Position numbers and translations under genes: made by a program. A DNA stretch of 42,152 nucleotides from assembly GCA_012031415.1 (NCBI GenBank), contig JAAUTN010000016.1, positions 1 through 42,152 on the forward strand. The letters run 5' to 3'. Source of the stretch: Leptolyngbyaceae cyanobacterium SM1_4_3. GTDB taxonomy: Bacteria > Cyanobacteriota > Cyanobacteriia > Elainellales > Elainellaceae. Below, one piece after another: positions 4,603-35,520 of this stretch (position 1 is the first letter of the stretch; each line of letters starts with the position of its first letter). Under the pieces are notes generated by a model. The model had not been told where the DNA came from and did not search any database. It saw only the letters and a program-made list of their open reading frames with translations.

Positions 4603-4703
4603 AATGGATTCTCCTTTAATAAGTGAGAGCAATATCAAGGGGCAACCAGTAGGACAGGCGTTAGCCTACTGCAACAGTTGCAAAAAGATCTATCCCAGTT
4701 CAT

Positions 4704-5329: not shown

Positions 5330-5767
5330 TTAATTGATTTCAATCAATTTCTTCAAGTTATTGACAACTTCTTTGCTCCCTTTTTTGGCTGACCCCGCAA
5401 TTAACGGCTCAAATAACCTGCCTACGCCATCCATACTAAACTCAAATATGTAGGTTACTTTTGTACTGCCATCTAGGGGTTCAAAGGTGTAGCTGTTTTT
5501 GAAGTATGGTTTACTCATCCCCGTGATTGAAAACTTTTGTTCTGGTTCGTAGTCCGTAATTTGGAAGGTAGACTCTGCCTTCCAGCCTCCTTCATTCATT
5601 AACTGTCGTCCTGTTGTGCCAATTCCAATCGGATCTTGAGAAGTTTTTTCCAGTTCAACAATTGCAGATTCCCAGTTGGGATAATTTTCAAAGAAGCCCG
5701 TTGCAATGTATTTGAACACTTCTTCGGTAGGACGATCAATGACAGTACTTGATTCAGCTTTAATCAT
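5330..5767 (-). CDS. SRPBCC (START/polyketide-cyclase-like) family protein
   Basis: A 145-residue protein with the SRPBCC pattern: an N-terminal strand and helix (ESSTVIDRPTEEVFKYIATG), a central sheet (YEPEQKFSITG, YTFEPLDGSTKVTYIFEF) and a long C-terminal helix with VVNNLKKLIEI. These helix-grip proteins hold hydrophobic ligands in a deep cavity, and some are cyclases. No catalytic residue can be assigned. The start ATG overlaps the stop of the upstream ABC ATPase gene by 4 bases, so the two are translationally coupled, and the SOUL gene follows after 5 bp. A ligand-binding or carrier role beside an exporter is inference. Confidence 0.75.
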   Translation of the reverse strand: MIKAESSTVIDRPTEEVFKYIATGFFENYPNWESAIVELEKTSQDPIGIGTTGRQLMNEGGWKAESTFQITDYEPEQKFSITGMSKPYFKNSYTFEPLDGSTKVTYIFEFSMDGVGRLFEPLIAGSAKKGSKEVVNNLKKLIEIN

Positions 5768-9048: not shown

Positions 9049-10080
9049 CTATGACGCTGCACTAGCCCAGTCTTGAGGTTTCAGGAACGTCTCATATAGC
9101 TCTGCTTCAGGAGTATTGGGTTCTGGGGTATAGCTATATTCCCAACGCACAAGGGGCGGTAGCGACATAAGAATAGATTCGGTGCGCCCGTTCGTCTGCA
9201 AACCGAAGATGGTGCCCCGATCATAAACCAGGTTGAACTCTACATAGCGACCTCTGCGATACAACTGAAAGTTCCGCTGGCGATCGCCATAGTTCATAGA
9301 TTGCCGCCGCTCCACAATGGGCCCATAGGCCGGTAGGAATGCGCTGCCGCAATCATTGACAAAGGCAAACAACTGTTCCCAGGTGCGCGGTGCCAGCGCA
9401 CCCACCTGGTTGCTGTGAACAGCCGCAGGTCCTGCTGGATGTGTCCCGCGATAGAGTTGACCCTGACCATCTTGATAGTCAAAAAAGAGTCCTCCCACGC
9501 CTCGTGTTTCTTGTCGGTGCTTGAGATAAAAATACTCATCGCACCAGCGCTTAAACACAGCATAGTACTCCGGGTGATGAGCATCACAAGCCTGCTTAAA
9601 GGTGGAATGAAAGTGAGCCGCATCTTCAGCAAATGGATAGTAGGGAGTCAGGTCAGCACCGCCACCAAACCACCAGACCGGACCGGCTTCAAAGTAGCGA
9701 TAATTCAAATGCACTGTTGGCACGTAAGGATTATGAGGATGCAGCACCATTGACGTACCCGTTGCATAGAAGCGATGTCCTTCTGCCTCTGGGCGCTGCG
9801 CCAGAATGGAGGTGGGCAGATGATCACCCCACACTTCAGAGAAGTTGACTCCTGCTTGTTCAAACACAGTGCCGTCTCGCATGATGCGCGATCGCCCACC
9901 GCCGCCTTCGGGTCGTTTCCATGAATCTTCCTGGAATCTGCCACCTCCATCTAACTGTTGTAACCCCTGACAGATTTCGTCCTGCAACTGTTGCATGAAT
10001 TGACTCACTCTAGCTTTTGCGTTGCTGGGAGGTAAAAAGTGAGTGGGTGTGGTTTGGGAAACTGAAGCAGCCATCGTCAT
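9049..10080 (-). CDS. hemF: Coproporphyrinogen III oxidase, oxygen-dependent (canonical copy)
   Basis: HemF uses O2 to turn the two propionates on rings A and B of coproporphyrinogen III into vinyls. All family blocks are present: [95 protein letters not shown] and [14 protein letters not shown] choose ATG 10080 (343 residues, [10 protein letters not shown]) because AGGAGG lies about 10 bases upstream; a longer frame to 10131 would run into hemB. The usual loop after FFDYQDGQG is kept, unlike in the second copy at 27458-28459. It follows hemB by 35 bp and ends the large operon at a hairpin. Whether it is the cell's only normal HemF cannot be told from this window. Confidence 0.95.
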
Positions 10081-11117: not shown

Positions 11118-12104
11118 TTAGCTCCGATGAACGGTTTGAAAAATTTCATTCAAAATGTCTTGTGCGCCTTGCTGACGCAGGAGTTGAGCCAGTTGAATGC
11201 CGAGATATTCTGCTTCACTGGCAGCACCCGTCACCGTATCTTTGATTAGCCGTTTACCATCCACGCTGGCAACCAGCCCGGTGAGGGTCAGCATCTCGTT
11301 GTTTAACTGAGTGTGAACACCAATGGGCACCTGGCAGCCACCCTCCAGTTCTCGTAGAAATGCCCGTTCAGCCAGGGCACGATCGCGGGTTGGCACGTGT
11401 TCAATTGCTTTCAGCACCGACAACACTTCTACATCGTCAGCCCGACATTCAATCCCTAACGCCCCCTGCCCTACTGCGTACAGGGAAATCTCCGGCGGTA
11501 GGATTTGGTGAATGCGATCGCTCATTCCCAGTCGTTCTAACCCTGCAACGGCCAAAATTAGCGCATCATACTCCCCAGCATCTAGCTTTGCCAGACGGGT
11601 GTTGAGGTTGCCGCGCACATCTTTAAATGTGAAATGAGGGAAGTGATAGCGCAATTGCGCCAGCCGCCGCAGGGAAGAGGTACCAATGATGGCACCTTCA
11701 GGCAGGGTATCAATTTGGCGATCGCGATACTTCTGATGGATCACAAGCGCATCTGCTGGATTTTCCCGCTCGGTAACGGCTGCCAATACCAGCCCTTCAG
11801 GTAGGCGAGTGGGCAAATCTTTAAGGGAGTGAACTGCAAAATCAGTCTCCCGATTTAACATACTCAACTCCAGTTCTTTGGTGAAGAGTCCCTTATCCCC
11901 AATTTTGGCGAGTGCGACATCCAGGATTTTGTCACCTTGAGTAGACATGGTGTGAACCTCAAAGCTCAGATCAGGAAAACTCATCTGAAGCTGTTGCTGC
12001 ACCCAATGTGTCTGAACCAAAGCCAGTTGGCTTTTGCGAGAACCAATCTGAAAGGTTTGAGTAGAACTGGCAACGGTCGATAGATCGGAATGAAGTAGAG
12101 TCAT
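11118..12104 (-). CDS. hemC: Hydroxymethylbilane synthase (porphobilinogen deaminase)
   Basis: HemC joins four porphobilinogens head to tail into hydroxymethylbilane. In 328 residues it shows [16 protein letters not shown], the catalytic aspartate in [10 protein letters not shown] (D96), [36 protein letters not shown] and the dipyrromethane-attachment cysteine in [11 protein letters not shown] (C257). It lies between rfbA (30 bp upstream) and hemB (6 bp downstream). No uroporphyrinogen III synthase (hemD) is found next to it or anywhere in the window, so ring closure must rely on a HemD encoded elsewhere or proceed without enzyme to the type I isomer. Confidence 0.96.
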
Positions 12105-12134: not shown

Positions 12135-13106
12135 TTATTTCAAAGATCTTGAAGGAGTGGTCAAGGAGACTTTTTTGGCTTCAGTCATTTCAGGAAAGGG
12201 AATCATTCGAGCAAATGGCTGAGCGGGAGCAAAACACAGATCTGCTTGAATCAAATCGATCAAATATCGCCCATAGCTACTTTTAGCTAATGGCTTAGCA
12301 AGCTGATAGAGTTGCTCTGCGTCGATATATCCCTGGCGGTAGGCAACTTCTTCGATACAGGCAATTTTGAAGCCTTGCCGCTGCTCCAATGTTTGAATAA
12401 AGCTGGCAGCCTGATGGAGGGATTCATGAGTTCCGGTATCCAACCAGGCATAGCCTCGCCCCAACAGTTCAACTCTCAGTTGTCCTCGCTGGAGATAAAC
12501 CTGATTTAAGTCCGTGATTTCTAACTCATTCAGTGCTGAAGGCTTGAGCTGAGTGGCGATCGCCGAAACCTGAGAATCGTAGAAGTAGATACCAGGCACA
12601 GCATAATTTGATCTGGGATGGCAAGGTTTTTCCTCCAGACTGAGAACTTGCCCAGTTTGATCAAATTCCACCACGCCATAGCGCTGCGGCTCAGCAACCC
12701 GATACCCAAAAATTAGGGCCCCTTCTCGTAATTGAGCCGCTTCCGCCAGCACCTCAACCAAACCATTTCCATAAAACAGGTTATCACCCAAGATGAGACA
12801 TACCGAGTCGTTGCCGATAAACTCCTCAGCCAGAATAAACGCCTGGGCAATCCCTTCAGGCTTTGGCTGTTCTACATAGCTAAACTTCAGCCCCCACTGG
12901 CTACCGTCCTGCAAAAGCTGTTGAAACAGCGGTAGATGAGTGGGTGTAGAGATGATCAGAATATCTCGAATTCCCGTCAGCATCAGAACTGACAGCGGGT
13001 AGTAAATCATTGGCTTATCGTAGACAGGCATCAACTGCTTACTCACCACCTGAGTCAAAGGATACAGCCGTGTACCAGAACCACCCGCCAAAATAATGCC
13101 TTTCAT
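12135..13106 (-). CDS. rfbA: Glucose-1-phosphate thymidylyltransferase
   Basis: RmlA/RfbA makes dTDP-glucose from dTTP and glucose-1-phosphate, the entry to dTDP-deoxysugars. The N-terminus [17 protein letters not shown] is the nucleotide-binding signature. [54 protein letters not shown] and [12 protein letters not shown] are all family blocks. A C-terminal tail of about 30 residues after [10 protein letters not shown] is a little longer than usual. I prefer ATG 13106 over GTG 13109 because AAGGA sits 6 bases upstream. It lies between the MFS gene and hemC, which places sugar and tetrapyrrole genes in one transcription unit. Confidence 0.95.
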
Positions 13107-13164
13107 CACTCATTCCTTACCTAGCTTGACCTTTATATCGTTTGACTGGCTCCAGATCAGTTGC

Positions 13165-14334
13165 TCAGTCCAGTTTGAGCAGAGGTTTTCTGGCTAACTT
13201 CCTTTTCTTGTAGGCACTGGCGACAAACAACACAGCAATGAAGAGCCACACTGCACCCGTCCAGTAAGGAGAAGTTGGGCCAAAGTAGTCAAATGCCAGT
13301 CCTGCCCAAACCGGACCAATCATCAGGGCAATACTGTCAATCGCTTGTGATGCCCCTAAGATAGAGCCTTGCTCTTCCGAAGAAACTTGTTTTGTAATGA
13401 TGCTCGTCAGGGTTGGTGTAGACAGTCCGCTACCCACTGCAATTAACGTCATAGCACCATAAATTGACCAAACTTCTGGCGCTAAAGCCAGAGCCGCATA
13501 TCCCAACATCATGAGGGCTAAACCAGCCGCAGCCAGCCGTCTCTCACGAAATCGCTCGACTAGAATCCCGGTAATTACTCCCTGCATCAAACCCGACAGA
13601 AAGCCGATGTAGGCAAAAATCAGTCCATTTTGTGCAGGATCTAAGCCATAGCGAACAAAGGTATACAGAACAAAGTTAGTTTGCAGCCCGCTAAAAGCAA
13701 AATTTTGAGCAAAGTTTGACAGTAACAATCGACGCAGGATGCGGGGACGGAGGGCATCTCTCACTTGCCGGAGTGGGTTTAGTTCCGCTAGAGCAATTCT
13801 TTTACGGCGTTGCTCTGGAGCTAGTGATTCGGGTAAGAGGAAGAACCCAAAGATGGTGATGATGACCGACAGGACACCTGCCGCCAACGCGGGGGTTTGT
13901 AAGCTAATCAGACTGAGAAAACCACCCACCGCTGGGCCAATGATAAATCCTATCCCAAACGCCGCCCCAATCAACCCAAAGTTTTTAGCTCGAGTCTCAG
14001 GAGAACTCACATCTGAAATGTAGGCTAAAGCAACTGAAATATTGCCTCCGGTCGCCCCGTCAATGAGTCGTCCAAGAAAAAGCAGCCACAGAGCATTTGC
14101 TGCGCCAAACAGAAAGTAGGCAACTCCTGTGCCTAGAATACACAGCAATAAAATGGGCCGCCGTCCGTGGCGATCGGATAAAACACCCAGGGCTGGGGTT
14201 GCAATAAACTGTGCCGAATAAAACGTTACAGCCAGAAGCCCGATCGCCAGGGCATTTTGGTTGAACTGCCCAACTAACGCTGGAATCACCGGAATGACCA
14301 TTCCGGCACACAGCAAGTCTAAACAGATCATCAC
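13165..14334 (-). CDS. MFS transporter, TetA-like drug:H+ antiporter family
   Basis: A 12-helix major facilitator protein with the motif-A loop GVLSDRHGRRPILLL, LGRLIDGATGGNISVALAYI and FAYIGFLSGLMQGVITGILVERFRERR split across the two halves. It would pump a small molecule across the inner membrane. The annotated start (ATG 14334, or GTG 14337) falls inside the first helix. The bases just upstream, in frame, encode DRKTILFIF, which is how the family normally leads in, but that frame has no start codon. An ATG at 14426 opens another frame reading MQESNSSMSSVPSIEQTDQ, so a single-base indel near 14361-14369 probably separates the true start from the body. Its place among sugar and hem genes suggests export of the product or self-resistance. 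Confidence 0.85.
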   Translation of the reverse strand: MMICLDLLCAGMVIPVIPALVGQFNQNALAIGLLAVTFYSAQFIATPALGVLSDRHGRRPILLLCILGTGVAYFLFGAANALWLLFLGRLIDGATGGNISVALAYISDVSSPETRAKNFGLIGAAFGIGFIIGPAVGGFLSLISLQTPALAAGVLSVIITIFGFFLLPESLAPEQRRKRIALAELNPLRQVRDALRPRILRRLLLSNFAQNFAFSGLQTNFVLYTFVRYGLDPAQNGLIFAYIGFLSGLMQGVITGILVERFRERRLAAAGLALMMLGYAALALAPEVWSIYGAMTLIAVGSGLSTPTLTSIITKQVSSEEQGSILGASQAIDSIALMIGPVWAGLAFDYFGPTSPYWTGAVWLFIAVLFVASAYKKRKLARKPLLKLD

Positions 14335-14486: not shown

Positions 14487-15569
14487 CTAGTGCGGTAATG
14501 CCATCACTCTGTTTTCGTAGTTTTGTTTGATCCAGGATTGGTATGCACCAGACTGAACTTGCTGAAGCCAAATTGGATGATTTTGATACCATTGAATCGT
14601 TTTTAACAACCCGCTCTCAAAGCTTTCGGTAGGTTGCCAACCCAATTCCCAACTGACTTTGCTGCAATCGATCGCATATCGCCTGTCATGTCCCAGGCGG
14701 TCTTGCACAAAGGTGATGAGCGAAGCGTGACGAAAGTTGGACTTGGGAGATAATTCATCCAAAATTGAACAAATCTGTTCAACTACAGTTAAGTTGGAGC
14801 GTTCGTTATTGCCCCCAATGTTATAAGTTTCTCCAACCCGACCGTTTTGTAGAATCAGATAAAGTGCTTCACAGTGATCCCCCACATACAGCCAGTCTCG
14901 AATATTTTGTCCATCTCCATAAATGGGTAGAGGTTTGCCCTGCAAGGCGTTGAGAACCATCAAGGGAATCAGCTTCTCCGGGAATTGGCGCGGGCCATAG
15001 TTGTTAGAACAGTTGGTTACGAGAGCGGGCAGTCCGTAGGTATGAAAATAAGCCCGGACGAGATGATCGGAGCTTGCCTTTGAGGCGGCGTAGGGGCTGT
15101 TGGGGGCATAGGGAGTGCTTTCTTGAAAGGCAGGATCGGTTGGGCCGAGGGAACCGTACACTTCGTCGGTTGAGATCTGTAAGAACCGAAATTGCTTGCG
15201 CTGCCAGGGTGATAGGGTTTCCCAATATGCTTTACTGGCTTCTAAAAGTTGAAAGGTTCCCAGTACATTCGTTTGAATAAAGTCTTGAGGGTTAAGGATG
15301 GAGCGATCAACGTGGCTTTCGGCCGCAAAATTGATGATGGCATCAGGTTGATGGCGGTTGAGCAGATCACGCACTAACTCAATGTCACAGATATCTCCAT
15401 GAACAAAGTGATACCGGGAGTCATCTTGCAGTCCCGCCAGAGTTTGAGGATTGCTTGCATAGGTTAGTTTATCCAGATTGATAATATTAGCCCAGCCCTT
15501 CTCTCTCGCTTTTAGGATAAAGTTAGAGCCAATAAAACCGACTCCACCCGTTACTAAAAATGTCTGCAT
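14487..15569 (-). CDS. rfbB: dTDP-glucose 4,6-dehydratase
   Basis: RmlB/RfbB converts dTDP-glucose to dTDP-4-keto-6-deoxyglucose using bound NAD. It has the Rossmann glycine motif TFLVTGGVGFIGSNFI at the N-terminus, NFAAESHVDRSI, the catalytic region ISTDEVYGSLG with YAASKASSDHLVRAYFHTYG (the Tyr-x3-Lys pair) and NCSNNYGPRQFPEKLIPL. The frame is open to 15635, but that start would overlap fdtB. The ATG at 15569 puts the Rossmann strand at the N-terminus and gives 360 residues, which is normal. It follows fdtB by 34 bp and, with RfbA, makes the keto-sugar that the next two enzymes use. Confidence 0.95.
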   Translation of the reverse strand: MQTFLVTGGVGFIGSNFILKAREKGWANIINLDKLTYASNPQTLAGLQDDSRYHFVHGDICDIELVRDLLNRHQPDAIINFAAESHVDRSILNPQDFIQTNVLGTFQLLEASKAYWETLSPWQRKQFRFLQISTDEVYGSLGPTDPAFQESTPYAPNSPYAASKASSDHLVRAYFHTYGLPALVTNCSNNYGPRQFPEKLIPLMVLNALQGKPLPIYGDGQNIRDWLYVGDHCEALYLILQNGRVGETYNIGGNNERSNLTVVEQICSILDELSPKSNFRHASLITFVQDRLGHDRRYAIDCSKVSWELGWQPTESFESGLLKTIQWYQNHPIWLQQVQSGAYQSWIKQNYENRVMALPH

Positions 15570-15603
15570 TTGCTGTATTCCAATGAACTGTAGAGTTTTT
15601 GGT

Positions 15604-16761
15604 TTAAACGGAGGATGCGATCGCCCGCTCCACATTCAGTCCTTGAATCTTGCCGCAGTCAGCCGATAACCTGTCCTGTAAAACATGGGTGACGTGCATA
15701 ACTTCTTCGTGGGTTATGTGAGGACTGATCGGTAGACTGAGAACAGTTTGGGCAAGCCGCTCTGTGATTGGGAAATAGCTCAAACTCTGCTCTGCTTTGT
15801 ACGCACCCGATAGGTGAGGTGGAATAGGATAATGAATTAAAGTTCCAATGCCTGCACTGCGTAAATGGGCTTCTAAACTAGAACGGTTTGAACATTGCAC
15901 CACAAACAAATGCCACACGGGTTCTGCCCAATTTGGAACATCGGGAAGCATCAAACCTGGCAAATTAGAGAGCTTTTCAAGATACTGATTTGCCACCTGA
16001 ATACGGCGAGCATTCCACTCATCTAGCTTTGCTAACTTCACCCTTAAAAAAGCAGCTTGCAGTTCATCCAAACGGCTATTAAAACCTTGCACTTCGTTTA
16101 AATACTTTGTCTGAGAGCCATAGTTTCTAAGCAATCGAATTTTGCCAGCTAAATTAGCATCATCTGTTGTCACGGCTCCCCCATCACCAAAGGCTCCTAA
16201 ATTTTTGCCAGGGTAGAAACTAAACCCTGCTGCGTCTGCTAAACCACCCACTCGTCGTTCTTTGTAATATGCTCCATGAGCTTGAGCCGCATCTTCAATC
16301 ACTTTGAGTTGATGCTGTTTAGCAATTTTATTAATGGAGTCCATGTCAGCAGGTTGTCCATACAGATGAACCGCCAGGATTGCCTTCGTCTTAAATGTAA
16401 TTGCTGCTTCAATTTGCTCTGGATTAATGTTGTAGGTGTTTGGGTCAGGTTCAACGGGCACTGGGGTTGCTCCGCTGTAGGAGACGGCTAGCCAGGTTGC
16501 GATGTAAGTATTCGCGGGTACGATCACCTCATCCCCTGTCCCAATTTCCATCGCTCGCAAAATCAAATGCAGCGCTTCTAGACCATTCCCAACTCCCACA
16601 CAAAACTGAGTGTCACAATAGGCTGCAAATTCTGTTTCAAATGCCTCCAATTCTTGCCCAAGAATATACCAGCCGGAGTTCATCACCCGTTGATAGGCTG
16701 CATCAAATTCTGGCTGTAATTCCAGATAAGGTGCCTTCAAATCTAAAAACGGGATCTTCAT
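15604..16761 (-). CDS. fdtB: DegT/DnrJ/EryC1-type sugar 3-aminotransferase, FdtB/QdtB-like
   Basis: A 385-residue PLP sugar aminotransferase. The PLP lysine is present in [16 protein letters not shown] (K186), with [29 protein letters not shown] and [16 protein letters not shown] as further family blocks. Next to an FdtA-like ketoisomerase it should aminate C3 of a dTDP-3-keto-6-deoxyhexose, giving dTDP-3-amino-3,6-dideoxy-galactose (Fuc3N) or the gluco epimer. It overlaps the upstream ketoisomerase gene by 4 bases. Because the lysine is kept, it is not a ColD/E1-type 3-dehydratase, in which this residue is replaced. No FdtC/QdtC-type acetyltransferase is seen. The exact stereochemistry of the product is not readable from sequence. 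Confidence 0.88.
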
Positions 16762-17318
16762 GCGTTTGCTCCCGTTGCTTCGATGAAATCTTTGTAATCA
16801 CGGTAATAGTCAGACTCATCGTAGAAGTCAGAAGCTAACGCCATGCAAACGGAACCGGAGGAGAAATTGTCAATCTCTCGCCATACCATAGGGCAGATAT
16901 AAAGGCCGTAGTAGGCGCGATTCAAATGATATTTGACTCGCTGATGTCCATCATCAATCACAACGTCAAAGCTGCCTGACATTGCGACCAGAAATTGATG
17001 AAGTGCTTTGTGGGCGTGTCCGGCTCGCTCTGCACCGCCGGGTACGTCATAAAGGTAGTAAACTCGTTTGATGTCGAATGGAATGTGCCGATCATTTTCG
17101 ATGAAGGTGAGGTTGCCGCGATGATCGGTAATCTTGGGAAGTTCAATAATCTGACATTGTTCTAATGCACTTTGATGATGGCGATCGCCCAGTTTCGGTG
17201 ACTTCTCAATGATTTGGCATTGCTCCAGCGCGGTCTGACGGCGGCGAGCATCCAGGGTCGGCAATTGCTCAATCACCTGGCATTGTTCAATCGTCCTTTT
17301 GGTGAGATAGATAGTCAT
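16758..17318 (-). CDS. fdtA: dTDP-4-keto-6-deoxyhexose 3,4-ketoisomerase, FdtA/QdtA (WxcM) cupin family, with repeated N-terminus
   Basis: The cupin body is typical of Fdt[41 protein letters not shown], the His pair in [16 protein letters not shown], and DVVIDDG. Family members move the keto group of dTDP-4-keto-6-deoxyglucose from C4 to C3. The odd feature is the N-terminus: the segment that usually opens the protein (EQCQIIE) is present three times at a 21-residue period before the cupin. I choose ATG 17318 (MTIYLTKRT, 186 residues) because AAGGGA lies just upstream and a longer start at 17354 would overlap the glycosyltransferase stop. It overlaps fdtB by 4 bases. The isomerase call rests on the body of the protein plus the fdtB neighbour. 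Confidence 0.87.
17100..17288 (-). repeat. Three 63-bp in-frame repeats at the start of fdtA
   Basis: The units 17288-17226, 17225-17163 and 17162-17100 each begin with codons for EQCQ(I/V)IE. The first two end in a basic stretch (DARRRQ, GDRHHQ), where the third has TDHRGN and runs on into the cupin. The copies have diverged, so the duplication is not very recent. Confidence 0.8.
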
Positions 17319-17334
17319 TGAAATCCCTTCAATT

Positions 17335-18615
17335 TTACGAGTGAAGAGGCGCACTCATTTCTGCGGTCGATCCTCTTCTGGACAGGGTTTGAAGCATCTG
17401 TTCAATGGCATCGGCGGCAAGCTCTGGTGAGTCCATTGACTGCAACCGTTGAGAGAGTGCCTGGACGCGATGATGCAACGCCTCATCTCGAAGTAAGGCA
17501 TTCAACTTGTCTTGAATGGCTTTTGGCGTTGCTTTGTTTTTCAGCAAATAATATGCCAGTCCCAGTTCGGCTGAGCGAGTCGCCGTAGCCAACACATCTC
17601 CTCCGAGGTCAGAAATGATCAGCATTGGCGTGCCATATCGAAATGCACTTCCGACCGTGCCAAACCCGCCAGAGGTGACAATCGCGCTGACGTAGGGCAA
17701 CACTTCATCAAACGGCACGAACGTTTCTAGACGCACATTTCTTCCCAGGTTTTCTGGCACATCCTTACGGTTGCCAGAGGTTGCCAAAACCGGAATTCCC
17801 ATTGCGGCAACCGCTTCCAACACCCGGCGAAACAGTCCGGTGTCTGGTTGGTAGGAAGTCGTAGTGCTGACCAAAACAGTACCCGGCTCCAGACTGGCTC
17901 CAAAAGGTGGCGCATCGGTAGTGCGAGGGATGCGAGAGGCGGTTGGTCCGATAAACACCTGGTTTTCCTGGAGCCGCTTGGGAGGAATAAACTCCTGATG
18001 AATGGTGACTAAATTCAGCAGCCTGGAAACGATAACGGCAAAAAATTCAGCAGGCGCATTTTTGGGACGTGGAGGTAAACCGACTTGTCTGCGAACTCGA
18101 TGGATCGGGAAAATGAAATTCACCAGTCCATGAATCAGGCGAGGCGGCAAGGGTGGAGAGATGAATAGTGGAACTCCATCTGCTTTGGGAACTACGGGCC
18201 ACGACATGGTTAATGTCACATAGGGAATACCCATTCTTTCCGCCGCGTAGGATGCCCCAAACCCCAGATAGTCGCCAATGATGCAGTCTACTTGCTCTCG
18301 CTTGATGATGTTTTCCAGTTCTGTCACCATTCCTGGAATCATCGTCAGAATCTCGTGACGGAAGTACAGCACCTGACGAAAAAATAAAGGGAGCCAGGTG
18401 GGCATGGGCGCTGAAGACTGCTTTAATCGATGGACAATATCACAATGTTCTGGCATTGAAACGAACTCAGCCCCTGCTGCCCGCACCTTGTCTTCATTGC
18501 AGGGTGCCGTGTGGATAAGAACACGGTGCCCCCGTTTTACTAATGATTCTGCGATCGGCAGGGCAGGCAGAATGTGACTCGTAACATGAGGCACGGTGAT
18601 CAATAGCGTTGCCAT
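17335..18615 (-). CDS. GT1-family glycosyltransferase (UGT/MGT-like)
   Basis: A 426-residue GT-B glycosyltransferase. The N-terminal acceptor half opens with LITVPHVTSHILPALPIAES and KRGHRVLIHT. The C-terminal donor half has VLVSTTTSYQ, ETFVPFDEVLPYVSAIVTSG and GGFGTVGSAFRYGTPMLIIS, in the place of the PSPG-like nucleotide-sugar site. Related enzymes glycosylate polyketides, carotenoids and other lipophilic aglycones and include C-glycosyltransferases. The ATG has AGGAGA directly upstream. It follows hemE and precedes the deoxysugar genes, so its likely job is to transfer the dTDP-sugar onto the tetrapyrrole. Only one glycosyltransferase is in the window. O- versus C-linkage cannot be told. 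Confidence 0.88.
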   Translation of the reverse strand: MATLLITVPHVTSHILPALPIAESLVKRGHRVLIHTAPCNEDKVRAAGAEFVSMPEHCDIVHRLKQSSAPMPTWLPLFFRQVLYFRHEILTMIPGMVTELENIIKREQVDCIIGDYLGFGASYAAERMGIPYVTLTMSWPVVPKADGVPLFISPPLPPRLIHGLVNFIFPIHRVRRQVGLPPRPKNAPAEFFAVIVSRLLNLVTIHQEFIPPKRLQENQVFIGPTASRIPRTTDAPPFGASLEPGTVLVSTTTSYQPDTGLFRRVLEAVAAMGIPVLATSGNRKDVPENLGRNVRLETFVPFDEVLPYVSAIVTSGGFGTVGSAFRYGTPMLIISDLGGDVLATATRSAELGLAYYLLKNKATPKAIQDKLNALLRDEALHHRVQALSQRLQSMDSPELAADAIEQMLQTLSRRGSTAEMSAPLHS

Positions 18616-18675: not shown

Positions 18676-19774
18676 TTAACGCGAGCCTAAAACTAGAGGG
18701 GACTGTAGAGTGGATTGCAGTTCAGGCTCAAGGTCGGTTGGGAAGTAGCGGAGTTGTTTGGCAGTTTCAAAGAAGCAGGCAACGTTTTCTTCAGGAGTAT
18801 GTTGCAACACCCCATGACCCAGGTTAAGAATGTGTCCCCGGTTTCCAGCCTTGCGAACCGTATCAGAGAGGCGATCGCCAATTAAAGCATGAGACCCATA
18901 CAGGACACAGGGATCAAGATTTCCCTGAACTCCTACATTGGCTCCGAGTCGCTGTCGTGCGACTGCCATATCAACCGTCCAATCTACACTCACGACATCT
19001 ACACCAGACTGGGCCATTAGCTCTAAAATGCCAGCGCTGCCATTGATGTAGAGAATGAGCGGGGTATCAGGATGAGTTGCCTTCACCTGACTCACGATCT
19101 GCTGCTGATAGGGCAGGGCAAAGGTTTTAAAGTCTTCTGGGCTAAGCTGTCCTGCCCAGGAGTCAAACAATTGCACCACTTGTGCGCCAGCGTCAATCTG
19201 GTAGCGAACGTAGATGGCGATCGCCTCAGCCAGCTTTCCTAAAAACTGATGCAGCATCGCGGGCTGTAAATACGCCATGCTTTTAATCAGAGCGTAATCC
19301 TTTGAGCTTTTTCCCTCAATCGCGTAAGCTGCGAGGGTCCAGGGGCCCAACAAATCCTAAAATCGTCGCCTCTCCATTGACCTCGCGAGACAGGGTTGTC
19401 AAAATCTGGCGCACGAAGGGCAAAGCTGCTTCAGGATCAAGCGGCGTGAGTGCATCAATTTGAGCTTGCTGACGAATGGGCTGCTCAAAGATTGGGCCTT
19501 TGCTTTCAAGAATGTCGAATGAAATTCCCAGACCTGGCAGTGGCGTAAGAATATCTGAAAACATGATTACGCCATCAGGCTTGAATGCATGGAAGGGCTG
19601 TAGCGAGATTTCTACAGCGAGATCTGGGTTCTCCGAACGTTCCCGAAAAGAGGGATATTTCTGGCGGAGTTCTCGATAAACTTTCATGTAGCGACCCGCC
19701 TGACGCATCATCCATACGGGAGGACGATCAAGAACTTCACCTCGTGCTGCTCGCAGCAATCTATCATTTTTCAT
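18676..19774 (-). CDS. hemE: Uroporphyrinogen decarboxylase, frameshifted in this sequence
   Basis: HemE removes the four acetate carboxyls of uroporphyrinogen to give coproporphyrinogen. The N-terminal part has [20 protein letters not shown] and [18 protein letters not shown]. The C-terminal part has [44 protein letters not shown] and [16 protein letters not shown]. After TILGFVG the frame breaks at a GGGGCCC run (19342-19348): family members read GFVGAPWTLAAY, and restoring two bases, one G and one C, in this run joins the halves. The repaired protein is about 366 residues, a normal length. Both halves keep the key motifs, so an assembly error in a GC-rich run is more likely than inactivation. 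The ATG at 19774 has GGGGAAG upstream. Confidence 0.92.
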
Positions 19775-21236: not shown

Positions 21237-22304
21237 CTAGTTCACCAGGGAAGTAACAGGCTGAGTTGCATCCTCTGTTGCAGAGGTTAACGGATGGCGA
21301 GATGACTCCAACCCCCATCCCTTCGCCAGGTATTTCTGCTGCTGCTTACGAAATGAAAGCGCCAACGCATCAGCCGCAACGTGCAGTTCTTCCGAAATTC
21401 TGGGCATTGGCTGCTCAGCCAAAGTTTCAACCACAACGGTATCTTCGTGACCCATCGCATAGTCAAGCTTTCTAGCCCAACCATCAAGCCAGGGCAGCGT
21501 CAAGAAATTGCGGTAGAAAACACGCTTACTGCGCGATGTTTTTTCATCAATGGGTAAGTAGGCAACCAAAATCCCAATCTTGATCGCATTTTTGCCCTTA
21601 CCGCCCACGTGAATCTCAGCAAGAGTGATATTAGGAAGGTAGTACGTGAGTGTTGTTGTGAACTCTGGACGACCTCCTAACAAGAGGTTCAACACGGTTT
21701 TTGAATCACCTAATGAATCATAGGAAAATTGGGCAACTCCACTCCAGGCATCTTCCTGAACGCGATATTTGATTTGTTTGTTCATTGGAACTCTTTGCCC
21801 AAAGGACTTGCGATGAATTGCAACGACATGGGCAAAGTCAAGATTCACTTCCATCAAGCGAGCATAGTTTGCACACTCTATCTCGTCATTGTAAGCAGCG
21901 TGCATTTTGGTCGATAGGTATGCCGGAAATGTGGGCAGAGGATGGCGTTCTGCTTCTGGCAAATCTCCGTAAAATAACCAGATAAATCCCTGGCTTTCCC
22001 GGACTGGATAGCTTGTGGCGATCGCCTTCTTGGGAATCGGCACTTCAGGCGCATTCGCAGGAATGTCAATGCATCGTCCATCTGCCTGAAACTTCCAGCC
22101 ATGATAGGGGCAACGAATGCAGTCACCTTCTACCCAGCCCAACGAAAGAGCAGCCCCCCGATGAGGACACTGATCCTTGAGCGCTATCACCTGCCCTTGA
22201 GAATTGCGATAGACCACAAATCGCTGATTCAACATCACAATTTGTTTAGGCTGATGCGTAACCTCGGAACTAAATTCGCACGCATACCAAAAATTTTTCA
22301 ACAT
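21237..22304 (-). CDS. Rieske non-heme iron oxygenase, PaO/Tic55-like (copy 1)
   Basis: The N-terminal Rieske domain has the [2Fe-2S] ligands CPHRG (C46, H48) and CIRCPYHGW (C65, H68). The catalytic domain has a D-x2-H-x4-H iron site, LDFAHVVAIHRKSFG (D156, H159, H164). The layout matches the pheophorbide a oxygenase/chlorophyllide a oxygenase group, which acts on tetrapyrroles. It is a tandem paralogue of the next gene, 4 bp upstream, with near-identical N-terminal 70 residues and a more diverged C-terminal half. That pattern suggests a shared electron donor and different substrates or positions. No dedicated reductase or ferredoxin is in the window. The reaction on the macrocycle is inferred. 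Confidence 0.9.
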   Translation of the reverse strand: MLKNFWYACEFSSEVTHQPKQIVMLNQRFVVYRNSQGQVIALKDQCPHRGAALSLGWVEGDCIRCPYHGWKFQADGRCIDIPANAPEVPIPKKAIATSYPVRESQGFIWLFYGDLPEAERHPLPTFPAYLSTKMHAAYNDEIECANYARLMEVNLDFAHVVAIHRKSFGQRVPMNKQIKYRVQEDAWSGVAQFSYDSLGDSKTVLNLLLGGRPEFTTTLTYYLPNITLAEIHVGGKGKNAIKIGILVAYLPIDEKTSRSKRVFYRNFLTLPWLDGWARKLDYAMGHEDTVVVETLAEQPMPRISEELHVAADALALSFRKQQQKYLAKGWGLESSRHPLTSATEDATQPVTSLVN

Positions 22305-22308
22305 AGGT

Positions 22309-23373
22309 TTAGTTCACTAACGCAGCATGAGAAGACAGGGATGATTGTCCATTGGCATGGGTTGGGTCGCTGGTATAAGGCTCTACCCCCCAACCCATCG
22401 CCAAATATTTCTGCCGAAGCTTACGATAAGCAAGCTGTAGCGCATCAGACGGAATATGAACTTCAGCAGAGAGTTGAGTGGGTATCATCTTAGGATATTG
22501 AGACTCACTGACGCGGCTATCTTCTGCGTAAATCTTGGTGTAGTAGTTCATAAAGACATCATCTAACCAGGAGTAACGCGCAAAGCTGCGGAAAAGGATT
22601 CGCTTACTGATCGTGGTATTGTCATCAACCGGAAAATGTACCGCGTAATTCACAATCCTGATTTGCTCAGATCGGCTCTCAACCTTTGTGATATTCGGCA
22701 AATAGAAGGTGAATTTTGAGTCTAAATCTGAGCTTTTTTGCCTGAAGAAAAAGGTGAATAGCCCTTTGGGTTTGGTGTAATTTCTGTAGGTGCTGGTCGC
22801 ACTGATTCCCCACCCTTCATCTTGAACTTCATACTCCTCCACTCTAGGATTGTCTTTAAACCCTGCACCAAACGTGTTCGCATGAACAATCGGCAAATGA
22901 GAAATGTCGATCGAGTTTTCTAAAACTCGCGTGTAGTGAGTGTGTACCGTGAAGTCAAGGTAAGAACGGTGTAGCGTCGGGTCATCAAATTCTGGAAGCG
23001 GAGGAATTGGTGGGCGTTCAGCTTCTGGCAAATCACCATAAAACAGCCATACAAACCCATATTTTTCCTGGGTTGGATAGGACTCAACGCGAGCCTTTTT
23101 TGGCGTTGGCGTTTCAGATGCATTGGCTGGAATATCAGCACATTGCCCATCTGACTGAAACTTCCAGCCATGATAAGGACAGCGAATGCAGCCATCTTCT
23201 ACCCAGCCCAAAGAGAGGGCAGCCCCCCGATGAGGGCACTGATCTTTAAGCGCAACAACCTGCCCCTGCGGGTTGCGATAAAGCACAAATCGTTGATTTA
23301 ACATCTTGATTTGTTGGGGCTGATGCGTGACTGTTGAGCTAAGCTCGCAAGCGTACCAAAAATTCTTTAACAT
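22309..23373 (-). CDS. Rieske non-heme iron oxygenase, PaO/Tic55-like (copy 2)
   Basis: A paralogue of the preceding entry (354 residues), with the Rieske ligands at the same positions (C46, H48, C65, H68) and a mononuclear iron site SIDISHLPIVHANTFG (D156, H159, H164). The iron-site context ISHLPIVHANTFG is closer to the usual PaO-like consensus than that of copy 1. The start ATG has AAGG immediately upstream. It lies 73 bp after hemA. The tandem pair could oxidise two ring positions or remove side chains in turn. Confidence 0.9.
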   Translation of the reverse strand: MLKNFWYACELSSTVTHQPQQIKMLNQRFVLYRNPQGQVVALKDQCPHRGAALSLGWVEDGCIRCPYHGWKFQSDGQCADIPANASETPTPKKARVESYPTQEKYGFVWLFYGDLPEAERPPIPPLPEFDDPTLHRSYLDFTVHTHYTRVLENSIDISHLPIVHANTFGAGFKDNPRVEEYEVQDEGWGISATSTYRNYTKPKGLFTFFFRQKSSDLDSKFTFYLPNITKVESRSEQIRIVNYAVHFPVDDNTTISKRILFRSFARYSWLDDVFMNYYTKIYAEDSRVSESQYPKMIPTQLSAEVHIPSDALQLAYRKLRQKYLAMGWGVEPYTSDPTHANGQSSLSSHAALVN

Positions 23374-23446: not shown

Positions 23447-24835
23447 TCACTGCCTTTTTGAGGTTGTTGCTTCTTTTGCCAGGCTATATTGCTCTTCTAC
23501 AGCCTGCAACGCAACTTCTTTAATCCAATTGAATTGATCCTCGGTGGTCAGGCTATACTCCTCTTCCTTTTCCAAGTTGAACAATGTTTGCACAGTCCGA
23601 ATAGCCAGACGTAAAGTTTCTACATCCTGCTGGGTACGAAGCTGCACCATCGGTTCATGCAGGATTTTGTTGACAATCCCCCGAGTCAAAGCTTCGACCG
23701 CATCGTGGTGTTTCTTGGGAAATTCTGCTCCCAAACGGGATAATGTTTTTCTGAACTCTTGCTCACGAATCGTCTCTACCTTTTCCCGTAAACAGTTAAT
23801 GGTAGAAACTGCTGCTTGCGACCGACACCAGTTATAAAAGGTTTTCAATTCCTCTTCAATTAGTGCCTGGGCTTCCATTGCTACCAGTCGGCGAGTTTCC
23901 TGGTTTTGAGCAACCACCACTTTTAGATCATCCACGTTAAATACATGAACCTGATCTAGCTGATTGACCTCTGCATCCACATTGCGGGGAACTGAGATAT
24001 CAAACAGCATCAATGGCTGATTGGGTTCTAAAATCGTTTGCAGATTAGCTCGATTTAACAACGGTTCTGTAGCAGCGGTACAAGTAAAGACTAAATCTGA
24101 AACTGCAACAACAGGAAGCATTTCAGGCAATGGATAGTACTGCAATTGAACCAGCCCGAATTGATCCATTAATTCTTTGGCTCGTTCAAACGAACGGTTG
24201 ATGATTGCGATTTGAGTTACACCCTTTGCCAGAAGATGTTGAACCAACCGTCGAGCCATTTGACCTGCTCCGACGATTGCGACACGACAGCCTGCCAAAC
24301 TCTGCACTTTCGTTTCAGCCAGTTCTACCGCCGCAGAGCTTACTGAAACCGCACCTTTGCCAATCGAAGTTTCAGATCTAACCCGCTTCCCCGCTGTCAC
24401 AGCTTGCTTAAACAACTGGTTGAGTATTCGTCTGATGCCACCATGCTGCTGTCCAACTTTGTAAGCGTGCTTGACCTGTGCCAGAATTTGTCCTTCTCCG
24501 ATAACCAAACTGTCTAGCCCAGAGGCGACCCACATTAAGTGTTTTGCTGCGCCCCAGTGCATCAGGGTAAACAGGTGTTGGTGAAGGGCATCGAGGGGCA
24601 ACTGGCTATGTTCAGCTAAAAACTGAGTAACTTCCTGCTCGGCCTGTTCTGCTTGAGTCACAACCACGTAAATTTCCAGGCGATTGCAGGTGCTAAGAAT
24701 TGCCGCCTCTTCAATGTGAGGATAACGACACAAACGGGCGATCGCAGACTCGATTTGAGCTTCAGGAATGCTCAGTTTTTCTCGAACTTCGACTGGAGCT
24801 GTCTTGTGACTGAGACCGACAACCGCAATATTCAT
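23447..24835 (-). CDS. hemA: Glutamyl-tRNA reductase
   Basis: HemA reduces glutamyl-tRNA to glutamate-1-semialdehyde and sets the rate of tetrapyrrole synthesis. From ATG 24835 the protein (462 residues) begins [20 protein letters not shown]. The catalytic cysteine is C50 in [12 protein letters not shown]. The NADPH motif is [17 protein letters not shown], and [11 protein letters not shown] and [10 protein letters not shown] follow. The frame is open to a TTG at 24928, but the extra 31 residues do not resemble the family and a GTGGAGA lies just before ATG 24835. A dedicated second HemA would give the cluster its own ALA supply, outside the heme and FLU-type control of the housekeeping enzyme. 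That last point is inference. Confidence 0.95.
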
Positions 24836-24928
24836 TAGGTTCTCCACTAGGATTGGTCTTGTTGCTTGGCGAGGCACTAGACGTAACGAGGGCGGTAACA
24901 ATAGTGAGTAGTGTGTGCGATCGCTCAA

Positions 24929-26395
24929 TTAAGCAACCGTTGTCTGGGGTTCAGCTACCGCCTCTCCAAGCGGTTGAGCTTGCTGTCTTGAAAGTGCAGC
25001 CTCTTCATACTGGAAGAAACCAGGACTTAGAATGCCTTGAGGGTCATATTTTTGTTTCATTTCATTAACCTGTCCCCAGTACTCTCCAAACTGGTGTCTC
25101 CAACCCGGAAGATCGAGTTCTAACCAACTTCCCATATACCGTTTGGCACCCATTTCAAAAGCAAGTTCTGTCAATCGGTTGAGCTGTTCTGCAACAGGCT
25201 GAAGCCGAGGTTTGGGAACGGTTGGATACATTCCAAACCCAATCACAAACTCTTCACTGGGCATGGGAAACATAGGCATTTTGATGCTGTTGGAAGCCAG
25301 ACAAAAGCCACCTACAGGTGTGCTTCTAAAATCAACAAACGTCGGGATTCGCTCAAGCGCAATTTCGATGAATTCCTGAGCTACTGATGCTGGTAAAAAC
25401 ACATCTAACCAGGGATTTGCCTCCCCTACCGGATGAGGAACCTCAGCGATCGGCTGGACAAACTTATCAAAATTCAAGTCTTCAGTGTGAACGTGACGAG
25501 CAAACTTCAAATCAGAAAGTAGTTTTTCCTCGTTCACATCATCAGGTGAATCAGTCTCTACCGTCAGTTGCATTCTATAAAACCACTGAATCAGAGGTTT
25601 AAACCCATTTCCTCCTGCTCTTGACGCTCCTAATACACAGGGGGAAAATAGCGTTAGTAAACCATCTGCCCGCTTTTCCGAAACAAGTAGCCGCTCATCC
25701 TGCAATAAAGCATCTAAGTCATCATATCGAAGGAAATAGGTGCGGGTGAATGGACGGTATCGCTTAAGTCGATGCTGAATCTTAGTCATGATCCCAAATT
25801 GACCATAACCGCAAAGAACGTGGTTAAATAGCTCACTATTTTCCTCTGGCGTACACCATACCAACTCCCCTGTTGCAGTGACAACCTCCAGACCCAAGCA
25901 ATTATCTGCTTGAGAGCCATAGAGAAAAGAGTTCTGTCCTAAACCGCCGGCAGAGTGAGTTCCTCCGATAGTTACGTCAAAGTTGTTAGTGAGTACTGGA
26001 GGAACAACACCTTGAGGGAGGGAGGCATCAACAATTTTTCTCCAGGTTGTACCAGAATCGACTTTAAACCACAAATCATCAAGACAGAATTCATGAATCT
26101 GGTTGAGCGTCCTCATGTCCAGGAGGATTCCGTCTTGGTTAAGTGACTGTCCACTGCACGAATGTCCAGCAGCTTTTGAAGAAATGATGAGTCCTTGAGC
26201 GGCGGCATACTTAACAGCATTAGCAACATCCAGAGAACTTTGAGGACGAACAACCACCTGCGGTCGTTTTTGAATCATTCCGCCAAAGTCTTTTGAAACT
26301 GCTGCCAAATCTTCTTCTGTGGTGCTAACTTCACCCTCAACCAGGTGTTCTAAATCTGAAAGAATACTGTTCTTAGAGGCGAGATTGTTGGGCAT
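24929..26395 (-). CDS. FAD-linked oxidase (VAO/PCMH family)
   Basis: A 488-residue flavoprotein. The FAD-binding PCMH domain has VVRPQSSLDVANAVKYAAAQ, the likely covalent-FAD histidine in AAGHSCSGQS (H78), LDMRTLNQI, TIGGTHSAGGLGQNSFLYG and GYGQFGIMTKIQHRL. The C-terminus has the typical KYDPQGILSPGFF. The nearest characterised relatives by pattern are cytokinin dehydrogenase-like oxidases that pass electrons from C-H/N-H bonds to FAD. In this cluster it could oxidise a porphyrinogen or the reduced ring edge; the window has no HemG, HemY or HemJ. It lies 93 bp upstream of hemA's ATG and 68 bp after the gene at 26464-27084. No direct evidence gives the substrate. Confidence 0.9.
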   Translation of the reverse strand: MPNNLASKNSILSDLEHLVEGEVSTTEEDLAAVSKDFGGMIQKRPQVVVRPQSSLDVANAVKYAAAQGLIISSKAAGHSCSGQSLNQDGILLDMRTLNQIHEFCLDDLWFKVDSGTTWRKIVDASLPQGVVPPVLTNNFDVTIGGTHSAGGLGQNSFLYGSQADNCLGLEVVTATGELVWCTPEENSELFNHVLCGYGQFGIMTKIQHRLKRYRPFTRTYFLRYDDLDALLQDERLLVSEKRADGLLTLFSPCVLGASRAGGNGFKPLIQWFYRMQLTVETDSPDDVNEEKLLSDLKFARHVHTEDLNFDKFVQPIAEVPHPVGEANPWLDVFLPASVAQEFIEIALERIPTFVDFRSTPVGGFCLASNSIKMPMFPMPSEEFVIGFGMYPTVPKPRLQPVAEQLNRLTELAFEMGAKRYMGSWLELDLPGWRHQFGEYWGQVNEMKQKYDPQGILSPGFFQYEEAALSRQQAQPLGEAVAEPQTTVA

Positions 26396-27457: not shown

Positions 27458-28459
27458 CTACACCCATTCTCGAGGGGTTTTTAACACCTCTCTAAGCATT
27501 GCTTCTGCACTATTGGGAGCAGGTTGATCATCATATTCCCAGCCTGCATGAGCGGGCATACAGTTAAAAACACTTTTCGGTGTAACCATGCCGCTCGCTA
27601 ATCCGAAACGCAGTCCTCGGTCAGAGGTCAAAATGAACTCGACATAACGCCCACGCACAACACGCTGCCACTGCTTGTTGTGTTCTGTAAAAGGCATATC
27701 CTTGCGTTTTTCTACGAGCGGGATGTAAGCAGGAACAAGTGCTTTGGTGCAATCTGTTACAAAAGCAAGCAGTTCTTCTAAGTTGCTTCCTTTGAGATGA
27801 TCGAAGAAAATTCCGCCGACACCTCGGCTCTCCCCGCGATGAGCAATGTGAAAATATTGGTCACAATTCTTTTTGAAACGCGGGTAATAAGACTGATCGT
27901 ATTTGTCACAGACCTCCTTGTGGATCTGATGAAAATGCACTGCATCTTCCTCAAAAAGATATGCAGGCGTGAGATCGGCTCCTCCCCCAAACCACCAGTA
28001 CTCAGGCTGAGTGCCGTCGCCAATCTGAAAGTAGCGATAGTTAGCATGGGCAGTAGGTGCCATCGGATTTCTAGGATGAATCACAAAGCTAGAGCCTGTA
28101 GCGAAAAAAGGAGTCCCTTTTTTATCAATCATTTGGTCGGCTTCTGATGTTCCAAGAGCGCCAGATTCCTGAAAAGTCATTCCAGGCGGCAATAAACCCT
28201 CAATGGCAACATAGTTAACGCCGACCTTCTCAAATACACTTCCTTGATGTAAAGCCCGGTCAATATAGAGCGTGTTATCGCTACTTTGACCATTTATCCA
28301 AACTCCGTTTTCACGAGTCCAGGTGTGTTCAGTAAATTTCTGATCATCCAGTTGTTCAACGGCCTGACAACCGTCTTCAAACATATTCCTGAACACATTC
28401 TCCAGTTTTTCACGCAAGTTTTGTTGTTCCTGTGCGGGCTTTTCCAGTATTTCAACCAT
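27458..28459 (-). CDS. HemF-family coproporphyrinogen oxidase homologue, divergent second copy
   Basis: A 333-residue HemF homologue. The shared blocks are FATGSSFVIHPRNPMAPTAH with [50 protein letters not shown] and RGRYVEFILTSDRGLRFGL. It differs from the canonical copy at 9049-10080 in two places. The loop of about 30 residues after FFDYQDGQG is missing (here FFDHLKGSNLEELLAFV). The conserved [13 protein letters not shown] is replaced by SGMVTPKSVFNCMPA, losing the arginine and glutamate of GRxES. That segment is near-invariant in HemF, so the substrate or reaction has probably changed. It is transcribed separately, between a 1.4-kb non-coding stretch and its own terminator. The HemF family is certain; the function is not. 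Confidence 0.88.
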   Translation of the reverse strand: MVEILEKPAQEQQNLREKLENVFRNMFEDGCQAVEQLDDQKFTEHTWTRENGVWINGQSSDNTLYIDRALHQGSVFEKVGVNYVAIEGLLPPGMTFQESGALGTSEADQMIDKKGTPFFATGSSFVIHPRNPMAPTAHANYRYFQIGDGTQPEYWWFGGGADLTPAYLFEEDAVHFHQIHKEVCDKYDQSYYPRFKKNCDQYFHIAHRGESRGVGGIFFDHLKGSNLEELLAFVTDCTKALVPAYIPLVEKRKDMPFTEHNKQWQRVVRGRYVEFILTSDRGLRFGLASGMVTPKSVFNCMPAHAGWEYDDQPAPNSAEAMLREVLKTPREWV

Positions 28460-33827: not shown

Positions 33828-35520
33828 CTAGACAATACCCAGCATAGATCGGGTCACTGCCGCAAAAGAATCTTTAAACTTGTTCACTGCTTGAGCAATG
33901 GGTCGCTGGGAACTAAGAAAAACACGAGCGCAGTTGCGACCCGGCATTCCTGAAATCGAGCCACCTGGGTGAGTGCCTGCTCCAGTCAGGTAAAGCCCTT
34001 GAATCGGCGTTTTGTAGTTTGCCAGTTCTGGTAACGGTCGCATAAAGATCATCTGGTCGAGCGTCATGTCAATGTGGTAGTAGTTGCCTTTGTAGGCTCC
34101 CAAACGTTCGCCTAGCTCTGCCGGACTCTCGACGTGACGAGCGATGATTGAGCTTTTCAAGTTCGGGGCGTAGTCTGCCAGTTTGTCAATGACGCGATCG
34201 GCAACTTTGTTTTCAAGTCGTCTGTCCAGCCCGTGCCGTTTAGTCCAGTTCCTTCGGCTCCAGCAATCTGGTAGGGCGCGAAGAACTCAATCCACAGGGT
34301 ATGTTTGCCGTCGGGTGCCATTGTGGGATCAAGCACGGTAGGTACAACGGCATACATGGATGGATCAGAATCTGGGATATCACCTGCGGTGGGGTGACTG
34401 TGGGCAATTTCTACATGGCGCACAGAGTCGGCAATCAGCACAGAGCCAATCAGGTTGCTGTCCTGATGATGATGATGCTCAAACCGGGGAATTTCTGAAA
34501 GGGCACAGTCGATTTTGAGAATCGTTTCGTTGTTGTTGATAATGCGGCGTTCGAGGCGATCGCGCAATTTTGGATCGGCTGCATCTACATCGGCTGCATT
34601 CATGCACTGCAAAAACAGCCGCTTTGCGTCAATGTTAGAGACTACAGCCTGCTTTGCTCGGTATTCGGTGCCATTTGCTACGCGCACTCCAACAGCCCGT
34701 CCATCGTCAACCAAAACTTGACTGACGTGCTGATCGGTTAGCACGACCCCACCCTCATGCTTGACTAGATTGAGCAATGCCTGGGTTAGTGCCCCGGTGC
34801 CGCCTCTGGGTCTTGCCATGCCTGGATTGTGGCGCATGGACATCATCATGCCACCGATAGCGATCGTCTTTTGTGAAGGCGGCGCACCCAATTCTGAGGC
34901 GAGTCTGGCCAACGGTGCTTTGAGAAATTCAGAGTCAAACCACTCGTTTATGTGGTCTTCTGGACTGGTCAGCATCATGTGCAGCATATCCAGGCTCTGA
35001 TCCATTCCACCCAACACAGAGAATAGATCTTGCAAACTTTTGATGTTGTAATTGCCCGCAATGTCGGGAATGGATTTGGGGGAGCGTTAAAAATTGGGGT
35101 GATCGCGTTCGTGAGACGCTGCCAAAACTCAGTGAATTCAGCGTATTTTTTAGCATCGCGATCGCTATATCGAGCGATTTCAGCACAGGTTTTTTCAACG
35201 GAACGGTGTGCCAAAAAGTACTTGCCGTCTGGATGCGGGCAAAACACCACTGGGTCACAGTAAAGATATTCCAGCCCGTATTTACCTAACTCCAGTTCCT
35301 CAACAACTGGCCCCAAGTGAATAAATTCGTGGTCAATCGCACAAAGATTAAATTTAAACCCAGGAGCCTCTTTGGGCATGATTTCCTCGGTCGTTGCCGC
35401 TCCACCGGGCACCGATCGCTTTTCTAGCAGCAACACGCTATACCCTGCCTTAAGCAAGTAGGCGGCACAGACCAGACCATTGTGTCCGGCACCAATGATC
35501 ACGACATCATACGCTTGCAT
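33828..35520 (-). CDS. crtO: Beta-carotene ketolase, CrtO type, with two frameshifts in this sequence
   Basis: CrtO ketolases add the 4-keto group to beta-carotene (echinenone). The N-terminal FAD motif is YDVVIIGAGHNGLVCAAYLL, followed by RSVPGGAATTEE, FKFNLCAIDHEFIHLGPVVE and YFLAHRSVEKTCAEIARYSD. The middle has MARPRGGTGALTQALLNLVK. The C-terminal FAD motif is LYLTGAGTHPGGSISGMPGR. The three parts lie in different frames. Break 1 is near 35066-35068: one base is missing around CCC, after which the protein resumes DIAGNYNIKSLQDL. Break 2 is at 34210-34213, where AAAA should be AAAAA, giving DDLKNKVADRVIDKLADYAP. Both are 1-base losses in homopolymers, and the repaired protein of about 564 residues is near the family length. 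The ATG 35520 has GGAG 7 bases upstream. Confidence 0.85.

Follow-up and report, generated by a model that had tools for sequence, protein, structure and literature searches.

Gene content of the locus

The window, which is the whole of contig C90 (42,152 nucleotides), carries a cluster of tolyporphin type (Table 1). The gene under study, HemF2, is a minus-strand open frame reading from 28459 to 27458 and encoding 333 amino acids (P0001). A preliminary description made from the letters alone had proposed a HemF homologue at this place and had compared it with a canonical copy nearer the start of the window. Both genes are real, and the canonical copy, HemF1, is likewise encoded on the minus strand and contains FFDYQDGQG and the 13-residue segment used in that comparison. 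Together with a housekeeping HemF gene on contig C605, they make three HemF genes in a genome of 7.79 Mb, which its HemF genes and their relatives mark as cyanobacterial.

Table 1. Genes of the tolyporphin-type cluster in the window and marked segments of HemF2
Feature	Position	Strand	Evidence
HemF2, non-canonical HemF, 333 aa (P0001)	27458..28459	-	frame, Pfam, HemF2 clade
Residues 51-68 of HemF2, NGVWINGQSSDNTLYIDR; most canonical HemF have a shorter glycine-rich stretch after human R183	28256..28309	-	alignment
HemF2 I276, Asn in canonical HemF (human N396), four residues before retained D280 (human D400)	27632..27634	-	alignment
HemF2 clade signature segment SGMVTPKSVFNCMPA, residues 289-303	27551..27595	-	pattern in 37/37 HemF2, 0/48 canonical
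TolI, partner removing vinyl groups (function from PMC10548856, PMC10459692)	26464..27084	-	profile match, TolI rows
TolJ, FAD-binding oxidoreductase	24929..26395	-	profile match; neighbour in relatives
HemA of cluster	23447..24928	-	named by reading; 57-69% matches, HT-58-2 and Oculatella clusters
HcaE-type Rieske oxygenase 1	22309..23373	-	profile match; cluster matches
HcaE-type Rieske oxygenase 2	21237..22304	-	named by reading; cluster matches
TolH, cytochrome P450	19838..21214	-	profile match; cluster matches
HemE of cluster, two frames meeting near 19346	18676..19774	-	matches
TolD, glycosyltransferase	17335..18615	-	profile match; cluster matches
FdtA-type sugar isomerase	16758-17354	-	profile match; cluster matches
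DegT/WecE aminotransferase	15604-16761	-	profile match; cluster matches
TolA	14487-15635	-	named by reading; cluster matches
MFS transporter	13165-14334	-	named by reading; matches in relatives
TolB	12135-13109	-	named by reading; cluster matches
HemC	11118-12104	-	named by reading; cluster matches
HemB	10116-11111	-	named by reading; cluster matches
HemF1, canonical HemF of cluster (P0003)	9049..10080	-	profile match, tree
DevB/DevC/DevA-type export genes	7747-8931, 6541-7713, 5764-6531	-	named by reading and PMC8401325; matches

The gene order is close to that given for the cluster of Oculatella sp. LEGE 06141 (Table 14 of PMC10459692). With this cluster and those of strain HT-58-2 (PMC8401325, PMC10548856, PMC10459692) the window shares a HemF2 of the same clade and signature, neighboured by TolI and TolJ. 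Oculatella has two TolD-type genes against one in the window, and its TolC separates TolJ from HemA, which have no gene between them here; the window in turn carries an MFS gene that separates TolA from TolB, and its HemE lies between TolH and TolD. Enzymes of the FdtA and DegT/WecE families take part in the formation of 3-amino-3,6-dideoxy sugars, and the pair encoded at 15604-17354, also present in the Oculatella cluster, suggests that the product bears such a sugar and not abequose.

The break in HemE near 19346 is either a sequencing error or true decay; the other HemE match of the genome, on contig C54, contains one internal TGA. A HemL-like gene (3293-4638) and a phytoene-dehydrogenase-like flavoprotein gene (34157-35520), both named by reading, are each split into overlapping frames, which hints at indel errors in the assembly.

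HemF2 retains the fold and the conserved polar residues of HemF

HemF2 belongs to the HemF superfamily by Pfam profile search (PF01218, 365.9 bits against a gathering cut-off of 31.8). It also passes the NCBIfam equivalog for ordinary coproporphyrinogen oxidase (NF003727), though narrowly, with 309.8 bits against a cut-off of 297; HemF1 scores 469.5 bits with the same model. An AlphaFold2 model of the protein (pLDDT 79.9, pTM 0.83) was compared with the PDB, and all 19 matches with E ≤ 0.001 were coproporphyrinogen oxidases. Foldseek gave a probability of 1.00 to 1TLB, 1TKL and 2AEX at 43-44% identity.

The fold and a set of His, Arg and Asp residues are common to the window protein and to HemF proteins such as human CPOX (2AEX) and yeast Hem13. 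Residues are numbered here as in the human enzyme, taken as the 2AEX chain position plus 108, which is presumably the right offset. Human H258, R262, D282, H297, H327, R328, R332, D400 and R401 correspond to residues 138, 142, 162, 177, 207, 208, 212, 280 and 281 of HemF2, and all but R401 were counted across the HemF2 set and found in 37/37 sequences. The 11-residue block at 155 and HFH at 175, named in the preliminary description as retained metal and substrate blocks, are indeed kept. Such conservation, like the passing of both family cut-offs, is what one would look for if HemF2 were an ordinary coproporphyrinogen III oxidase, whether a second copy that diverged as selection relaxed or one with a use under other conditions.

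A clade signature separates HemF2 from canonical HemF

A first alignment held 20 HemF2 and 48 canonical HemF sequences, and a second held 37 distinct HemF2, both HT-58-2 copies included, with the same canonical set; the 37 were left from 50 HemF2 rows after 13 identical ones had been dropped before counting, some of them one gene entered twice. The canonical set comprised 33 loci from the cyanobacterial phylum, HemF1, 6 of 31 alphaproteobacterial loci, five plasmid-borne HemF and the human, yeast and Leishmania chains. Five residues invariant in 48/48 canonical sequences (N396, G411, I417, M419 and S420) are replaced in all 37 HemF2. Three of the changes, N396I, M419N and S420C, are fixed, occurring in 37/37 HemF2 vs 0/48 canonical, which argues against the ordinary oxidase. 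E415 is present in 47/48 canonical sequences and is Q or K in HemF2, while R413, found in 41/48 with Asn in the other seven, is never R in HemF2; the window protein has K and T at these positions. Relative to canonical HemF it shows N396I, G411M, R413T, E415K, I417V, L418F, M419N, S420C and S208V. I276, the counterpart of N396, sits where a helix predicted in the model (259-278) ends.

The replaced segment noted in the preliminary description is therefore a signature of the clade, shared with the second HemF copies of other clusters: the pattern F[GI][IL]xx[GN][MI]Vxx[QK]SV[FL]NC[ML]P, composed after the rows had been inspected, matched 37/37 HemF2 and 0/48 canonical sequences. Because the segment is fixed to this extent, its change is not a matter of drift or chance. 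Within HemF2 there is one further difference, at human H248, which is His in 48/48 canonical rows and Asn in 11/37 HemF2 (L016, L017, L109, L111-L117 and HT-58-2 BGC-1); the window protein keeps His (His128).

The missing loop is not a mark of new chemistry

The preliminary description had also counted the absence of a loop of about 30 residues after FFDYQDGQG among the losses of near-invariant residues. The absence itself is real, the loop region being 16 residues long in 37/37 HemF2. It measures 41-48 residues in 33 of 34 canonical rows of the cyanobacterial phylum, the exception (L057) belonging to another class, and 15-19 residues in the remaining 14 canonical rows, which include the human, yeast and E. 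coli enzymes. Since length divides the canonical rows in this way, the loop is an insertion of cyanobacterial HemF and no set of near-invariant residues, and its absence has no functional meaning for HemF2. The human, yeast and E. coli proteins are treated as coproporphyrinogen oxidases (PMC10548856) and equally lack it; we thus rejected loop loss as a mark of new chemistry. Judged by the refuting condition of the preliminary description, the loop difference recurs in the human, yeast and E. coli enzymes, but the change of the segment is seen in 0/48 canonical rows.

A second length difference, passed over in the preliminary description, lies after window R49 (human R183): up to G197, HemF2 has 24-25 residues vs 14 in 37/48 canonical rows. 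Four canonical rows (L026, L057, Hymenobacter and Paraburkholderia) are shortened at the R183 end by trimming. Canonical alphaproteobacterial rows have 13-24 residues in this stretch; because they reach 24, the longer block is weakened as a mark of HemF2, its length not being special. Docking to human CPOX placed the substrate carboxylates at R183 and R413, and the R183K and R413K mutants kept substantial activity (PMC13071380; its text prints R282 where the mutant list gives R262). Both altered places, the signature segment and the R183 block, would thus adjoin proposed carboxylate contacts. The authors of the HemF2 work themselves compared predicted structures and described a changed pocket, in a sentence that names the two proteins unclearly (PMC10548856).

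HemF2 forms a clade apart from the HemF1 of its own cluster

In the best tree all HemF2, those of HT-58-2 and Oculatella included, formed one clade (100/100 support) outside cyanobacterial HemF. The clade splits in two: 11 rows, the BGC-1 copy of HT-58-2 among them, form one group, and 26 rows, which include the BGC-2 copy and the window protein, form the other. Identity of the window protein is 58.9% to BGC-1 HemF2, 71.5% to BGC-2 HemF2 and 68.5% to Oculatella HemF2, vs 43.1% to HemF1 of its own cluster. Our assignment of the HT-58-2 copies agrees with the literature: they are 56.3% and 67.7% identical to Oculatella HemF2 (published values 56 and 67), and both genes fall within the published cluster ranges. 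The window gene is thus the HemF2 of a tolyporphin-type cluster, orthologous to an unusual enzyme that has already been published.

We considered HemF2 as a close duplicate or decayed copy of the cluster HemF1 (window and Oculatella), and rejected this grouping by the AU test (p 0.00027), the tested group having been named after the tree was viewed. A single clade of HemF2 with all cyanobacterial HemF was not rejected (p 0.064), with long branches in play. Taken together, the two values point to an old paralogue or an acquired gene and not to a decayed HemF1. Canonical HemF was also present in the window's own genome and in 7/7 other HemF2 genomes tested, which makes a role for HemF2 as the enzyme of heme synthesis unlikely; this again speaks against an ordinary oxidase.

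HemF2 occurs together with TolI

In the window the TolI gene lies 373 bases downstream of HemF2 on the same strand. Five cysteines of TolI (C109, C124, C128, C155 and C157) show at least 97% conservation across 42 rows. Among 217 genomes of one cyanobacterial family, HemF2-type and TolI matches fell in an identical set of 41; the line for HemF2-type matches, best E < 1e-95, was chosen after the list had been viewed, and the next matches below it, with 50-51% identity, had E-values of 2.6e-74 and 1.0e-67. Across 386 genomes sampled from the phylum, HemF2 (E < 1e-150) and TolI (E < 1e-70) again occurred in an identical set, of 6 genomes; a seventh TolI match (G181, E 3.1e-4, 29% identity) came from a genome without a HemF2-type match. 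That every one of the 41 HemF2 genomes in the family sample encodes TolI is hard to reconcile with an ordinary oxidase.

The two genes are also physically linked. In each of the 42 HemF2-TolI pairs the two genes share contig and strand, with TolI at most 1 kb downstream in 40/42. TolI adjoins HemF2 in 13 of 14 named relatives; in the remaining one, an uncultured Coleofasciculus MAG (L012), TolI was found neither near HemF2 nor by a search of the MAG sequence, and HemF2 is followed by TolJ, HemA and HcaE genes. HT-58-2 (G464) contains a third TolI-like gene (C1:1028722-1029144), away from both clusters and 46% identical to window TolI over residues 25-165.

Probable reaction of the window HemF2

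According to two reviews (PMC10548856, PMC10459692), Ushimaru, Lyu, Ling and Abe (JACS 145:9834, 2023) assigned the formation of protoporphyrinogen IX to HemF1. As reported there, HemF2 of HT-58-2 then converts the two propionates still present in this compound, those of rings C and D, into vinyls by decarboxylation. The resulting tetravinyl intermediate loses its four vinyls to TolI, and acetaldehyde is formed as a by-product. The enzyme assayed was probably BGC-1 HemF2, as one review (PMC10459692) links the idea with BGC-1. One line of that review has HemF1 and HemF2 convert coproporphyrinogen III to protoporphyrin IX; it conflicts with the authors' own review (PMC10548856) and is perhaps a slip.

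In the light of the clade signature, the co-occurrence with TolI and these reported assays, the window gene very probably encodes a tolyporphin-type HemF2, an O2-dependent propionate decarboxylase built on the HemF fold that would turn protoporphyrinogen IX into the tetravinyl porphyrinogen, whose vinyls TolI would remove. HemF1 or the housekeeping HemF would supply protoporphyrinogen IX; HemF2 would oxidatively decarboxylate the ring C and D propionates to vinyls; TolI, encoded beside it, would then cleave all four. N396I, the GMVxxQSVFNCMP segment and the longer R183 block may re-shape the pocket for a substrate in which vinyls replace two propionates. That the window protein performs the same reaction as its HT-58-2 orthologue is suggested by their orthology. 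The suspicion of an altered reaction, acting on other side chains, was thus well founded, the side chains being the two propionates; the 'new reaction', however, is already in print for HT-58-2 HemF2, which settles the candidate as one reported for an orthologue. Several points count against our reading: BGC-1 HemF2, probably the assayed enzyme, stands in the other tree group and its group has Asn at H248; one review contains the protoporphyrin IX line; L012 has no TolI; NF003727 is passed; and the length of the R183 block is not special.

The action of the HT-58-2 orthologue on protoporphyrinogen IX (PMC10548856) joins the fixed residues, the constant TolI partner and the additional canonical HemF genes in making an ordinary coproporphyrinogen III oxidase very unlikely here, despite the retained His/Arg/Asp set and the family cut-offs passed. 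The preliminary description had gone further and suggested complete side-chain removal as a new use of the HemF fold. Products of tolyporphin-type clusters do have open beta positions (PMC10548856), but HemF2 stops at the vinyl stage and TolI, a different protein whose gene is present in the window, is needed to cleave the vinyls (PMC10548856, PMC10459692); we regard removal by HemF2 alone as wholly improbable.

A BGC-2-type HemF2 such as that of the window might instead differ in substrate from the BGC-1 type, acting for example directly on coproporphyrinogen III, at each of its four propionates, or on a macrocycle that has already been modified in part. Its separate tree group, with about 59% identity to the BGC-1 enzyme, its His at H248 and the many group members in short cassettes without hem genes of their own nearby would fit such a difference. 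Yet the signature is common to both groups, the TolI partner is the same with the same five cysteines, and the window cluster has its own canonical HemF1; a different substrate is accordingly unlikely, and conversion of protoporphyrinogen IX remains our preferred reading.

The signature separates HemF2 from housekeeping HemF where automatic annotation may fail, as the passing of NF003727 illustrates. Combined with the HemF2-TolI pairing, it offers a simple way to find further candidates for the production of porphyrins whose side chains have been removed: 41/217 genomes of one cyanobacterial family, vs eight strains and one partial cluster in a 2021 census.

Short HemF2 cassettes in relatives

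Regions of 10-20 kb around HemF2 were examined from 34 of the 41 family genomes; a gene was scored as present if it matched a window gene with 38% identity across 80 residues, so that genes outside the stretch or below this cut would be missed. Cluster HemA, B, C or E was found near HemF2 in 12/34 regions and none of them in 22/34, which carry HemF2-TolI-TolJ, 20 with Rieske genes and 2 with TolH instead. The order HcaE-HcaE-HemF2-TolI-TolJ-DevB(CA) recurs in 19 of the 20 regions with Rieske genes (L157-L161, L163-L175, L177), with no match to HemA/B/C/E, TolH or TolD within the 17-20 kb examined.

In the portions of the tolyporphin literature available to us we found no mention of short HemF2 cassettes, and the 2023 review (PMC10459692) does not name the genera Komarekiella and Dendronalium; a search for tolyporphin together with Rieske returned no paper, a weak test as the genes are called hcaE there. 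We tentatively propose, with slightly less than even confidence, that HemF2 and TolI stand at the centre of a broader and largely unexplored pathway to bare-position porphyrins. Many Nostocales carry such short cassettes (two Rieske oxygenases, HemF2, TolI, TolJ and a Dev exporter); these would draw on the ordinary heme pool to produce tolyporphin-like pigments that are not glycosylated, the Rieske enzymes replacing TolH as ring oxidants. A variant of the short cassette with one HcaE was seen in L176 (10.5 kb).
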